Below, in pieces: positions 380-19,642 of a stretch of DNA of 53,488 nt. A program made the translations under genes and the position numbers. Where the stretch lies: the NCBI GenBank assembly GCA_040218145.1, contig JAVJQK010000090.1:1-53488 (forward strand), given 5' to 3'. Numbering within the stretch: the stretch's first letter is position 1; the number at the start of each line of letters is the position of its first letter. The notes below the pieces were generated by a model. It saw only the letters and a list, made by a program, of their open reading frames with translations. It was not told the origin of the DNA and did not search any database. Origin of the DNA: Sandaracinaceae bacterium (GTDB taxonomy: Bacteria > Myxococcota_A > Polyangia > Polyangiales > Sandaracinaceae).

Positions 380-1138
380 TCAGGGCGCGACCGTCGCCCG
401 GATGAACGAGACCAGCCGATCGAGGACGGAGTCGGGGATGGTGTGTCCGCCCTCGAACGGGACGAACGTGACCTCGGTCCCCCCGCGCTCGAAATGCCCC
501 CGAAGCCGCTCGGCGGCGTCGAAGCGCAGCAACGGATCGCCGCGGCCGTGGCTCATGAACACCGCACGGGGTGCGCGCTCCATGCGTGACCGCCAGCGGG
601 CCTCGTCCACTGGTCCCCCGCTCATGATGACCAACGCCGCGGGCCTCTCGCTCCACTCCAGCGACGCCGCCGTCGCGAGCATCGCGCCCTGGCTGAAGCC
701 CGCGAGCACCGTCCGCGAGGGCTCGATCCGACCGCGCGCGTGAAGCCGCTCGAGCAGCGCGATCAGGTCGCGTCGCGCCTCCGCGAGCCCGGGCGGCGTC
801 TCCTCGCCGCGATCGGTGGGCCGACGCAAGCCCTCCGGGTCGATGGGCCACCACGCGCGACCGGTCGGGGGACGCTCGAGCGGCGCCGCCGGCACCGCGA
901 CTCGCACCCCCGCGCGGCGTCGCAGATGCCCAGCGAGCGGCACCAGGTCGTCGCCCGGCGCCCCCCAGCCGTGGAGCAACACGACCACTGGCGCCTCGCC
1001 CTCCTCCGGGCCCGCCCAGCGCACGGAGAGCTCACGCGCGCTCGGTTCCGCGCCGAGCCGCGTCGGCTCGGCCTGGCGCTCGCCACCGCAACCCAGCAGC
1101 AGCGAGAGCGACGCGGCCGCGAGCGTCGCCCCCTTCAC
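380..1138 (-). CDS. Lipoprotein carboxylesterase/phospholipase-like alpha/beta hydrolase
   Basis: 252 residues beginning with a signal peptide that ends in a lipobox (LLLG-C, Cys17), so the mature protein should be lipid-anchored. The rest is a small alpha/beta hydrolase of the phospholipase/carboxylesterase (PF02230) type: an oxyanion-region HGWG (56-59), nucleophile elbow GFSQG with Ser149, an Asp in HGRGDPLL and the catalytic His in EGGHTIP near the C-terminus. It likely cleaves ester bonds of lipids or small acyl esters at the envelope. Its ATG overlaps the mlaD-like stop by 4 bp, so the two are translationally coupled, and a link to envelope lipid handling is a fair inference. The substrate is unknown. 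Confidence 0.8.
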   Translation of the reverse strand: MKGATLAAASLSLLLGCGGERQAEPTRLGAEPSARELSVRWAGPEEGEAPVVVLLHGWGAPGDDLVPLAGHLRRRAGVRVAVPAAPLERPPTGRAWWPIDPEGLRRPTDRGEETPPGLAEARRDLIALLERLHARGRIEPSRTVLAGFSQGAMLATAASLEWSERPAALVIMSGGPVDEARWRSRMERAPRAVFMSHGRGDPLLRFDAAERLRGHFERGGTEVTFVPFEGGHTIPDSVLDRLVSFIRATVAP

Positions 1139-3569: not shown

Positions 3570-4946
3570 TCAGCGCGGCGTCCGGAGCTCGCGCTGGAGC
3601 ACGAGCCCCCGCAACACCTGATGCGCGATGCGAGCCTGGAAATCGTCCGCGAAGATCCGCTCCGACTCGGGCTCCCCGCCCGCCTCGCGCCGGACCTCGG
3701 ATCGCGGGGTGAGCTCCTGCACCTCGCCCTCCTCCGCCTCGGTGTCCGACTCGAGGTGGCGCTCCAGGCTCGCCTCGCTGAAGCGCTCGATGGCGCGCTG
3801 GACGAGCTCGCGCGAGGTGGCCTCGTCGAGCTGCTCCACCTCGACGTCCGGCTCGATGCCGTGTGCCTGGATCGAGCGCCCGCTCGGCGTGTAGTAGCGC
3901 GCCACCGTCAGCTTCAGCGCCGAGCCGTCGGGGAGCTCGATGATGTTCTGCACGCTCCCCTTCCCCCAGGTGTCGCTGCCGACGACGATCGCCCGCCCGT
4001 GATCGCGCAGCGCGCCGGCCACGATCTCCGCCGCGCTCGCGGTGAAGTTGTCGACCAGGACGACCATCGGCCAGCGCGGTCGCGTCCCCGTCCGGTGCGC
4101 GCGCGCCTCGCTCAGCAGCTGCCCGCCGCGACCGCGCGTCGAGACGATCACGCCCGACTCGAGGAACTCGTCGCTGACGCGCACCGCCTCGTCGAGCAGC
4201 CCGCCCGGGTTGCGACGCATGTCGAGGAGCACGCCACGCACGCCGCCGGAGCTCGCAGTGCGCTCCACCGCCGCGTCGAGCGCCCGCCGCACCTCGTCCG
4301 TCGTGGTGCTCTGAAACGACTTGATGCGCAGATGCACGATGCGGTCGGGCAGGATGCGCGCCTCGACCGCCTCGATGCGCACGATCTCCCGCGTGAGCGT
4401 CATGCGCAGCGCTTCGTCCTCGCCCTCGCGGCGAATCGAGACCTGCACCTCGGTGCCGGGCTCCCCGCGCATGAGGCGCACCGCGTCGGAGATCGGCATG
4501 TCGCGGGCGCGACGACCGTCGAGGGTCAGGAAGCGATCTCCCGGCTGGATCCCCGCACGATCGGCCGGCCCACCGGAGAAGACCCCGTGCACGGTCAGCC
4601 AACCGTCCCGGACGTCGATCTCCACGCCCACCCCACCGAAGCGCCCCTGGGTGTCGGACGTCAGGATCCGATACTCCTCGGGATCCATGAAGGTGCTGTG
4701 CGGGTCGAGCGTCTCGACCATCCCGCGGATCGCGCCGTAGATCAGCTCGTCCTGATCCGGCTGCTCGACGTGCACAGCCTCGATGTGACTGAGGGCCCGC
4801 GCGAAGATCGCGAGGTTGGCGTAGGGCGAGGCGCGGCCCTCGGTGGCGAAGGCCCGCTCGACGGCGCCCAGGGTGAGCGTGGCCACGAACGCACCTGCGA
4901 AGGTGGCCAGGATCAGGGCGGCGCCACGGGTACGAAGTAGGGACAT
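3570..4946 (-). CDS. S41-family C-terminal processing protease (CtpA-like)
   Basis: 458 residues from the ATG at 4946; an upstream in-frame ATG at 5057 would add 37 Arg-rich residues in front of the hydrophobic signal segment (LILATFAGAFVATLTLG) and is less likely. Order: signal/anchor (1-32), N-terminal helical part, PDZ domain (about 85-170, GVGVEIDVRDG to GDRFLTLDG), then the S41 core. The catalytic Ser lies in NFTASAAEI and the general-base Lys in TWGKGSVQ, the Ser/Lys dyad of the family. A Glu-rich C-terminal tail follows (VEQLDEATS to ELTPRSEVR). Such periplasmic proteases trim C-termini of envelope proteins. Length fits the family. Confidence 0.92.
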   Translation of the reverse strand: MSLLRTRGAALILATFAGAFVATLTLGAVERAFATEGRASPYANLAIFARALSHIEAVHVEQPDQDELIYGAIRGMVETLDPHSTFMDPEEYRILTSDTQGRFGGVGVEIDVRDGWLTVHGVFSGGPADRAGIQPGDRFLTLDGRRARDMPISDAVRLMRGEPGTEVQVSIRREGEDEALRMTLTREIVRIEAVEARILPDRIVHLRIKSFQSTTTDEVRRALDAAVERTASSGGVRGVLLDMRRNPGGLLDEAVRVSDEFLESGVIVSTRGRGGQLLSEARAHRTGTRPRWPMVVLVDNFTASAAEIVAGALRDHGRAIVVGSDTWGKGSVQNIIELPDGSALKLTVARYYTPSGRSIQAHGIEPDVEVEQLDEATSRELVQRAIERFSEASLERHLESDTEAEEGEVQELTPRSEVRREAGGEPESERIFADDFQARIAHQVLRGLVLQRELRTPR

Positions 4947-4995
4947 CGCGGCAAGAATGCCGCCTGCGCGTCTGCGGAGCCACCGCGGCGTGCCA

Positions 4996-5025
4996 TTGAC
5001 ACGAGGCGACCGGGTTGGGTAGGAC
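4996..5025 (+). promoter_or_regulatory. Candidate sigma-70-type promoter for the ribbon-helix-helix gene
   Basis: A perfect TTGACA (4996-5001) is followed after 18 bp by TAGGAC (5020-5025). The predicted start is near 5032, about 55 bp before the ATG at 5088. The -35 is strong; the -10 matches only three of six consensus bases, as do other candidate promoters in this window. Confidence 0.45.
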
Positions 5026-5031
5026 TCCAAG

Positions 5032-5042
5032 CGACACTGTCG
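5032..5042. promoter_or_regulatory. Small palindrome at the predicted transcription start (possible operator)
   Basis: CGACACTGTCG is a perfect 5+1+5 palindrome located right where transcription from the 4996-5025 promoter would begin. Ribbon-helix-helix proteins commonly bind such sites and repress their own promoter, and the next gene encodes one; autoregulation is inference only. Confidence 0.3.
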
Positions 5043-5087
5043 TGTAGCTGCGCACATGTGTGCACGGGCGGTGGCGGAGGTTCGACG

Positions 5088-5285
5088 ATGGCCGGGAGCG
5101 ACAAGCGGAAGCAGAGCCTGTACATCCCGCAGGCGATGCTCGAGGAGATCAACCGAGAGATGGACCGGCTCGACCGGTCGCGCTCCTGGATCGTGCAGCG
5201 CTGCATCAAGATCGCCCTGCCCGAGATCAAGAAGCTCCCGTCGGTCAACGACATCGACGACGACGACCGAGACGAGGACGAGTGA
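5088..5285 (+). CDS. Small ribbon-helix-helix-like protein
   Basis: 65 residues. I chose the ATG at 5088 because GGAGG sits 8 bp upstream and the peptide MAGSDKRKQSLYIPQ has the RHH layout: a basic strand (KRKQSLYIP) followed by two helices (MLEEINREMDRLD, then RSWIVQRCIKIALPEIKKL), ending in a very acidic tail (DIDDDDRDEDE). A GTG at 5058 would add 10 Gly-rich residues. It resembles the small myxobacterial family labelled TIGR04563; that label is from memory. The likely role is DNA binding as a dimer, possibly self-regulating. Its stop codon abuts the first copy of the hairpin repeat array, so the array may be transcribed as its 3' end. Confidence 0.75.
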   Translation: MAGSDKRKQSLYIPQAMLEEINREMDRLDRSRSWIVQRCIKIALPEIKKLPSVNDIDDDDRDEDE

Positions 5286-6079
5286 GGCGGCCAGCTCTCG
5301 CGTAGCGAAAGCGCGACCCGCCGTAGTCGAGAGGGGGGCCCCATTGGCGCTCTGCCCAATGGGGGGGACCTGCGTTCAGGCACTCCGGCCAAACAAGGCG
5401 GCCAGCTTTCGCGAGAGCGAAAGCGCGAGCCGCAGGGCCCCCACCGCCCCGTCGGTGGGGTCGGCGTGTGAGCGCGCGGAGCGCGCGAATCGCCGTAGTC
5501 GAGAGGGGGGCCCCATTGGCGCTCTGCCCAATGGGGGGAGGGCCTGCGTTCAGGCACTCCGGGCAAACAAGGCGGCCAGCTCTCGCGAAGCGAGAGCGCG
5601 AGCCGCAGGGGCCCCAGCGCCCCGTCGCTGGGGTCGGCGACCGAGCGCGCGGAGCGCCGTAGTCGGGAGGGAGGGGGGCCCCATTGGCGCTCCGCCCAAT
5701 GGGGGGAGGGCCTGCGTTCAGGCACTCCAACGAGAACAGGCGGCCAGCTCTCGCGAAGCGAGAGCGCGAGCCGCAGGGGCCCCAGCGCCCCGTCGCTGGG
5801 GTCGGCGACCGAGCGCGCGGAGCGCGCGAATCGCCGTAGTCGGGAGGGGGGCCCCATTGGCGCTCTGCCCAATGGGGGGAGGGCCTGCGTTCAGGCACTC
5901 CGGGCAAACAAGGCGGCCAGCTCTCGCGAAGCGAGAGCGCGAGCCGCGGGGCCCCCACCGCCCCGTCGGTGGGGTCGGCGTGTGAGCGCGCGGAGCGCGC
6001 GAATCGCCGTAGTCGGGAGGGGGGCCCCATTGGCGCTCCGCCCAATGGGGGGAGGGCCTGCGTTCAGGCCCTCCAACAA
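5286..6079. repeat. Tandem multi-hairpin repeat array, about 4.6 units of roughly 170 bp
   Basis: The anchor CCAGC recurs at 5291, 5402, 5576, 5744 and 5917, giving one short unit (111 bp) and then units of 174, 168, 173 and about 163 bp. Each full unit has five hairpins in fixed order: CTCTCGC/GCGAGAG; CCCCAGCG/CGCTGGGG; GCGCGC/GCGCGC; CCCCATTGG/CCAATGGGG; GCCTG/CAGGC. Copies differ by paired changes: CTTTCGC/GCGAAAG in the second unit, and CCCCACCG/CGGTGGGG in the second and fifth. The first unit lacks the second and third hairpins. Frames are open by chance through the array on both strands, but the peptides are just the repeat translated. Function unknown: a structured RNA family or a mobile palindromic cluster. 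Confidence 0.9.
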
Positions 6080-6135
6080 AGGACAGTGACTCGGTCCGCT
6101 CGCGCTCCTGCGTAATTGCGCTAAGGCACCCGGTC

Positions 6136-7026
6136 ATGGAGTACGACCGGCAGGGCTTCGCGAGCGCAGAGGATGGGACGCGCCTCTTCTGGGGCGCACG
6201 TGGCGAGGGCCCCACGGTGGTGCTCAACGACGGCATCGGCTGCGACGGCTTCGCCTGGAAGTACCTCCAGCCTCACCTCGCCGAGACCCACCGCGTGCTG
6301 CACTGGCACTACCGCGCGCACGGTCGTAGCGGGCTGCCCGTGGACCCCGCGCGCATCGACGTGCCGGCCCACGCCCGCGATCTGCTGAGCGTGCTCGACG
6401 CGCACGAGGTGGACGAGGCGATCCTGGTCGGCCACAGCATGGGGACCCAGGTGGCGCTCGAGGCCCAGCGCCTCGCCCCCTCTCGGGTGCGCGCGCTGGT
6501 GCTCATGTGCGGCAGCTACGGCCGGGTCACCGCCACCTTCCACGGCAGCGACATGCTCAAGCAGGTCCTCCCCGGCATCCTGGAGGCGGTCGAGCGTCGC
6601 AAGGGCCTCGCCCGCGCGCTCTGGGGTCGCATCCCGGCCAAGCTGGCGTTCCACATCGCGCGCCTCTCCAAGGAGGTCGACGCGCTCGCCATCCGGGAAG
6701 AGGACTTCCGGCCCTACATGGAGCACGTCGCCGCGATGGACCCGCAGATCTTCCTCGCGATGCTCCGCCACGCGGGGGAGCACACCGCGGAGGACATCCT
6801 GGAGCGCATCGCCGTGCCGACCCTGGTGGTCGCCGCCGAGCGCGACACGTTCACGCCGCCGGCCCTCGCGGAGCACATGGCCGAGGTGATCCCGGGCGCG
6901 GAGCTCTTCCTGCTGCGCGGCGCGAGCCACGCCGCCCCGATCGAGCAGCCCGTGGCGATCCAGCTGCGCCTCGACAAGTTCGAGCGCGAGCGCCTCTCCG
7001 CCCGCGCCAGCGCCGCCAACGCGTGA
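6136..7026 (+). CDS. Alpha/beta hydrolase
   Basis: 296 residues, no signal peptide. It has the alpha/beta hydrolase fold marks: nucleophile elbow GHSMG with Ser101, a candidate acid in AERDTFTP and the catalytic His in GASHAAPIE near the end; the region around 160-215 is the lid. Proteins with this pattern include esterases, lactonases and dehalogenase-like enzymes; the substrate cannot be read from sequence. It stands alone downstream of the repeat array and converges with the FHA gene at 7054. Confidence 0.82.
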   Translation: MEYDRQGFASAEDGTRLFWGARGEGPTVVLNDGIGCDGFAWKYLQPHLAETHRVLHWHYRAHGRSGLPVDPARIDVPAHARDLLSVLDAHEVDEAILVGHSMGTQVALEAQRLAPSRVRALVLMCGSYGRVTATFHGSDMLKQVLPGILEAVERRKGLARALWGRIPAKLAFHIARLSKEVDALAIREEDFRPYMEHVAAMDPQIFLAMLRHAGEHTAEDILERIAVPTLVVAAERDTFTPPALAEHMAEVIPGAELFLLRGASHAAPIEQPVAIQLRLDKFERERLSARASAANA

Positions 7027-19036: not shown

Positions 19037-19642
19037 TCAGCTGAGCAGCGAGGTGCTGCCCGGAGCCGGCGCGGAAGAGGCCGGGCCCGTCTTGGGCTTC
19101 TTGGTGGCCTTCTTGCGCGTCGACTTCTTCTTGGCCGCCTTCTTGGTGGCCTTCTTCTTCGGCGCCTTCTTGGTGGCCTTCTTCTTCGGCGCCTTCTTGG
19201 CCGCCTTCTTCTTGGCCTTCTTCTTCGGCGCCTTCTTGGCCGCCTTCTTGGTGGCCTTCTTCTTCGGCGCCTTCTTGGTGGCCTTCTTCTTCGGCGCCTT
19301 CTTGGCCGCCTTCTTCTTGGCCTTCTTCTTCGGCGCCTTCTTCTTGGCTGCCTTCTTCTTGGCCGCCTTCTTCTTCGGCGCCTTCTTGGCCGCCTTCTTC
19401 TTGGCGGTCTTCTTCTTCGCCGTCTTCTTCTTCGGCGCCTTCTTGGCCGCCTTCTTCTTGGCGGTCTTCTTCTTCGCTGCCTTCTTGCGCGGCGCCTTCT
19501 TGGCCGTGCGCTTGGCAGCAGTCTTGGTCGACCGGCGAGTCGTCTTCTTCTTGGCGGCCTTCTTGGTCACCTTCTTCTTCGCCGTCTTCTTCTTCGCCTT
19601 CTTCTTCGCCGCCTTCTTGGCGGCCTTCTTTGCCTTGGCCAT
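19037..19642 (-). CDS. Histone H1-like Lys/Ala/Pro-rich DNA-binding protein
   Basis: 201 residues made almost wholly of Lys, Ala, Pro and Thr in units such as [11 protein letters not shown] and [10 protein letters not shown], with a short non-basic tail ([16 protein letters not shown]). This is the composition of the H1 C-terminal tail and bacterial H1-like proteins (Hc1/AlgP/KapN-like), which bind and compact DNA without sequence specificity. An AGGAGG ribosome site precedes the ATG. The same block of about 33 residues occurs twice, so the gene has grown by in-frame duplication and its length may vary among strains. Its upstream region is unusually AT-rich and carries a good promoter, suggesting high expression. 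Confidence 0.85.

Follow-up and report, generated by a model that had tools for sequence, protein, structure and literature searches.

The array and its units

At about 5285–6080 of the window (the whole stretch of 53,488 nucleotides that was analysed) lies a tandem array with a 173-bp period, with a 65-aa ORF on one side and an alpha/beta hydrolase gene on the other (Table 1). It is built head-to-tail from units of ~170 bp, of which the first is partial and the other four are near-complete. An earlier note on this DNA had described tandem units of about 170 bp with five stems each; the array itself stands, while the five stems are not complete in every copy, the first and third units being the exceptions.

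Table 1. Features of the array and its neighbours in the window.
Feature	Coordinates	Strand	Description
65-aa ORF	5089–5285	+	Neighbour outside the element; its TGA abuts the array end opposite stem 5
Unit 1	5286–5395	+	Partial; lacks stems 2 and 3, stem 1 being followed directly by stems 4 and 5
Unit 2	5396–5569	+	Five stems; stem 1 in the TTT/AAA form, stem 2 in the CACCG/CGGTG form
Unit 3	5570–5737	+	Shortened stem 3
Unit 4	5738–5910	+	Five stems
Unit 5	5911–6080	+	Five stems; sole window copy with fully paired stem 5 (6051–6074)
Core	6023–6074	+	Stems 4 and 5 of the last unit, common to class Polyangia
Alpha/beta hydrolase gene	6136–7026	+	Neighbour; starts 56 nt past the array and points away

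On the plus strand, stem 1 reads GCTYTCGC-GNA-GCGARAGC with an outer clamp GCGGC/GCCGC, stem 2 CCCCAGCG..CGCTGGGG, stem 3 GCGCGC-GGA-GCGCGC within CGGCG/CGCCG, stem 4 CCCCATTGG..CCAATGGGG and stem 5 GGAGGGCCTGCGTTCAGGCCCTCC. Stem 3 is connected to stem 4 by a G-rich linker, GTAGTCGGGAGGGGGG, and an A-rich tail follows stem 5. The changes on both arms that had been read from the window were confirmed in stem 1 (CTCTCGC/GCGAGAG vs CTTTCGC/GCGAAAG) and in stem 2 (CAGCG/CGCTG vs CACCG/CGGTG), as was the first copy of stem 1, which is mismatched on the plus strand and G-U paired on the minus strand. These two-sided variants are alleles present in arrays genome-wide and therefore need not have originated in the window array. 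In stem 5, four of the five window copies carry an identical one-sided C-to-A mismatch (5366, 5537, 5705 and 5878).

Folding of single units gave z = −5.0 for the minus strand and −4.3 for the plus strand. In the predicted minimum-energy folds, two GGGGCCCC blocks pair over a long range and compete with the local hairpins; if the prediction holds, five independent hairpins would be just one of two competing folds. No intrinsic terminator (hairpin and U-tract) was found in window 4900–6400. The product of the 65-aa ORF looks, by its sequence, like a small ribbon-helix-helix type DNA-binding protein; neither Pfam nor NCBIfam gave a match to it, and its own genome encodes no paralogue.

Dispersed copies and distribution across Polyangia

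The genome search for dispersed copies that the earlier note had proposed was performed on the window's own genome (G000, 11.06 Mb). A query of one unit gave 96 matches at about 40 places, and the stem-5 sequence alone gave 75, against 0 for the reversed-pattern control. Copies inside one genome are nearly identical. Many contigs of this genome terminate within such arrays, as is expected of repeats. The exception seen to the head-to-tail arrangement is a single fragment in L059 that runs the other way.

Outside this genome, the core, which consists of GGGGGGCCCC, stem 4, GGGGGGAGGG, stem 5 and CCCTCC in this order, was found in 11/183 genomes of the order, and its reversed pattern in none. 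In a scan of 84,980 species, almost all of the matches listed were from Myxococcota (Sandaracinaceae, Kofleriaceae, Polyangiaceae, Enhygromyxa and unnamed bins), and one Rubrobacter match to the core pattern was without a paired stem 5. All carriers in a phylum-wide sample belonged to the window's own class, Polyangia, and the core was found in no other class of the phylum in that sample. The distribution is patchy, as the repeat is absent from some genera of the same taxonomic family. Virus-borne copies were considered and rejected: there were two pattern matches, neither with a paired stem 5. No description of such an element was found in the literature on Sandaracinus or myxobacterial intergenic repeats.

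The stems were compared across carriers. The 55 distinct inner sequences of stem 4 have 5.8 matched pairs vs 1.3 when shuffled, and the 39 of stem 5 have 3.9 vs 1.4. The stem sequences are wholly different between genera, yet self-complementary, which means that the sequence has been replaced lineage by lineage while the fold and the skeleton were kept.

Pairing within the stems

Covariation statistics, also proposed in the earlier note, were obtained on 50 distinct full units. At fixed structure, 97.2% of cells are paired vs 94.3 ± 0.2% in letter shuffles, with 0/500 shuffles reaching 97.2%, and two-sided changes amount to 61 cells vs 15.6 ± 3.0. Sliding the structure along the units left just 35–52% pairing. 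The proposal that the folded form is preserved is thus borne out, both measures lying far beyond the controls. There are 65 non-paired cells, plus 12 of wobble type. A recurrent tandem G-A/A-G in stem 1 makes up 22 of the 65, and many of the remainder fall in stem 3, whose length variants are poorly aligned. This stem 1 variant (CGAG/CGAG), seen in 11 of the 50 full units (e.g., L071 3233 and L084 3689), replaces Watson-Crick pairs in the same register.

The wobble-type pairs comprise six G-T and six A-C. As these numbers are equal, the test favours RNA of neither strand, and a preference for RNA of one strand is unsupported. Stem 1 has a GNA loop in 47/50 units of the own genome and in 15/19 of a second genus, with all four bases occurring at N. 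In DNA, a GNA triloop with a closing C-G pair is exceptionally stable. We regard the loops as a lead, in that they hint at DNA hairpins.

Position at gene 3′ ends

The main feature overlooked in the earlier note is the fixed position of the arrays behind convergent stop codons. Genes were called around 120 array ends in the own and related genomes, with gene ends taken from a home-made codon-usage caller, and a neighbour on the stem-5 side was called at 110. This neighbour points toward the array in 97 cases and away in 13 (p = 5 × 10⁻¹⁷), tandem copies and loci common to sister species being not fully independent in these counts. On the opposite side of the array the numbers are 53 vs 37, with no significant bias. 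Stem 5 typically lies 4–15 nt from the stop codon, a range which also holds for most copies in Kofleriaceae. The spacing is exactly 7 nt in 12 of the 20 copies of G004, with four more at 6 to 8 or 12, 7–8 nt in most G001 copies and in roughly half of the G006 copies, and 10 nt in 5/6 copies of G002. Copies were also observed directly behind tRNA genes and the SRP RNA gene. Since only a few nucleotides separate the stem-5 end from the stop codon or RNA 3′ end that it follows, it is the minus strand of the element that continues the transcript of the gene. The far neighbour is convergent in 59% of cases vs a baseline of 25% (p = 3 × 10⁻⁸), and this excess points to the ends of transcription units.

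The stop context CTGAG is enriched (33/65 vs 65/301, p = 5 × 10⁻⁶), most strongly in G004. A CTGAG target was rejected as the whole explanation because other lineages use other contexts. The stop-codon position may reflect targeting, selection against other positions, or function. The window copy is an exception to the orientation rule, as its stem-5 end faces the start of the hydrolase gene and not a stop codon. A separate observation concerns L089, where a YrlA (Y RNA-like) match just above the Rfam gathering score (936–1051, minus strand) sits inside a cluster of 17 tRNA genes that also contains two hairpin arrays.

Gain and loss between relatives

Fourteen loci of G006 were compared with their orthologous positions in a sister species, G001 (10.33 Mb): the core is missing from 11 of these positions, and the other three align through it. 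At locus L140, G006 has 147 bp including the element, about 40 bp of which extend past the consensus, and the G001 flanks join with zero bases between them, exactly at the TGA stop. No target duplication was found at the cleanest empty site. Terminal inverted repeats are also missing, the unit ends not being inverted copies of each other. Presence differs at two sites even within one species. At several other empty sites the intergenic DNA differs too, so that deletion or rearrangement is possible there; at the clean sites, a gain explains the difference most simply. A palindrome-based mobile element, the other reading in the earlier note, is well supported by the dispersed copies, by the same architecture with replaced stems in other genera, and by these empty sites in the sister species.

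Alternative explanations and known repeat families

A serious alternative, albeit an unlikely one, is a functional RNA element of the 3′-UTR, a terminator or 3′-end protector read from the minus strand, which was spread and kept by selection for its function and not by selfish mobility. The 97:13 orientation, the tight spacing between stop and hairpin, the enrichment at convergent transcription-unit ends, the copies behind tRNA and SRP RNA genes and the strong single-unit folds all agree with it. The element also resembles an intrinsic terminator in being a GC-rich hairpin directly 3′ of a stop codon or RNA gene. Nevertheless, a U-tract does not follow the hairpins in the window region examined, and whereas intrinsic terminators evolve independently, the element is near-identical genome-wide. 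The equal wobble counts give no G-U bias to the mRNA strand, the window's neighbouring genes are not in the expected orientation, and at most sites the element is missing behind the orthologous gene of the sister species. At one such site (L143), the sequence beyond the inserted element still contains a palindrome that looks like a native terminator.

It was also considered that the arms are matched by template-switch correction of palindromes during replication, with no selection on folding and with spread by ordinary duplication. Such correction would account for the small number of G-U intermediates (12 wobble-type vs 61 two-sided cells), the perfect DNA palindromes and the tandem growth, but it leaves unexplained the conserved GNA loops, the constant skeleton with variable stems across families and the stop-codon position, and we find it very improbable.

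The statement that no described family fits is right for Rfam, in which no family matches the unit above the gathering threshold, but REP/BIME repeats are clearly the nearest kind. The likeness lies in extragenic, high-copy palindromes that are clustered, are often found at gene 3′ ends and have arms matched by complementary changes. REPs keep their palindromicity through complementary changes (PMC2817692), and some provide stop codons for flanking ORFs, with GTAG-REP ends often providing TAG (PMC3733652). However, the defining REP unit is a palindrome of 20–40 bp with an unpaired GTAG or CGTC head, whereas here the units are 125–180 bp with up to five hairpins and no constant head across genera; in G000, GTAG stands before stem 4, without being constant in the other genera. 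BIMEs consist of REPs in alternating orientation, while the arrays are head-to-tail. That a RAYT (Y1) transposase moves the element as a classical REP/BIME system is mostly refuted and in our view very improbable: Y1_Tnp is present in G000 and G004, but the G000 RAYT adjoins different repeats (GGGGACG/CGTCCCC) with no hairpin unit nearby, and the carriers G001, G002 and G006 gave no Y1_Tnp match. As the RAYT link, unit size, orientation and head all differ, we file the element as REP-like and not as a REP member. The G000 RAYT is itself flanked by a dispersed inverted repeat, ...AAGTCAACCTAGCGTCCCC / GGGGACGCTAGGTTGACTT... (L097 around 1860–2400, L060 around 230–640 and the G056 locus L228), which looks from its sequence like a CGTC-tagged REP of this genome.

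Miniature elements, MITEs and those of IS200-IS605, were compared as well. These are likewise short, non-coding, dispersed, and gained and lost, and elements derived from IS200/IS605 have hairpin-rich ends. MITEs differ in having terminal inverted repeats and a target duplication, neither of which is seen here, and no source transposase was found for the element. A reverse transcriptase (RVT_1), considered as a mobiliser and as a sign that the element derives from a group II intron or retroelement, is absent in the carriers G004 and G034 and present in others. The searches of the carrier genomes found no mobilising enzyme. A local tandem duplication whose stems pair by chance in DNA very rich in G+C, a reading that the base composition and the tandem arrangement might suggest, is refuted by the dispersed copies, the cross-genus architecture and the zero control matches, and we give it practically no chance.

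Proposed explanation

The array probably consists of tandem copies of a non-autonomous repeat that is dispersed in the genome, is about 125–180 bp long with up to five hairpins, is peculiar to myxobacteria of class Polyangia, and is mobilised in trans and kept at gene ends. The repeat is multicopy, is gained or lost among close relatives, has its stems rebuilt genus by genus, and lies in one prevailing orientation behind gene 3′ ends. Its spread would proceed via a mechanism acting on folded single-stranded DNA, with the mobilising enzyme supplied in trans. Copies would survive chiefly at gene ends, since hairpins in that position would do no harm or would be of use, by terminating or protecting the transcript; the arms would stay matched through selection on the fold together with copying between copies.

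A more far-reaching version, which we put forward tentatively and hold to be rather unlikely, is that the repeats form a class of mobile elements recognised by structure and not moved by RAYT, whose insertion would be aligned on stop codons and the 3′ ends of RNAs via folded single-stranded DNA or via coupling to the end of transcription or translation, and which spread as a ready-made 3′ tail. If the main proposal is right, a class-wide family of mobile hairpin repeats supplies dozens of genes in each genome with 3′ tails that are nearly identical. The pairs with and without the element in sister species would then offer direct tests of the effects of the tail on transcript ends, and the same natural pairs would let the spread of a folded repeat without RAYT be studied. 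The replacement of stems across genera would be an unusually clean case in which structure is kept while sequence is turned over.

Other repeats near the arrays and in the window

Repeats of other kinds were seen beside the arrays. In L071 (2713–3230), a different short tandem repeat (GAAGCGCTGACGCCGCAGACGAGTTTGTATAGATGAATAGGATCGTCCCC) adjoins hairpin arrays, and a related-looking repeat lies upstream of the L092 array. Low-complexity filler repeats, GAGCGCAGCGAAGC, flank the sense-3′ side of many arrays of the window's own genome, e.g., in L061, L070 and L094. The window itself contains a long CTTCTTGGC-type repeat at 19097–19630, which probably encodes a lysine/alanine-rich repeat protein on the minus strand.
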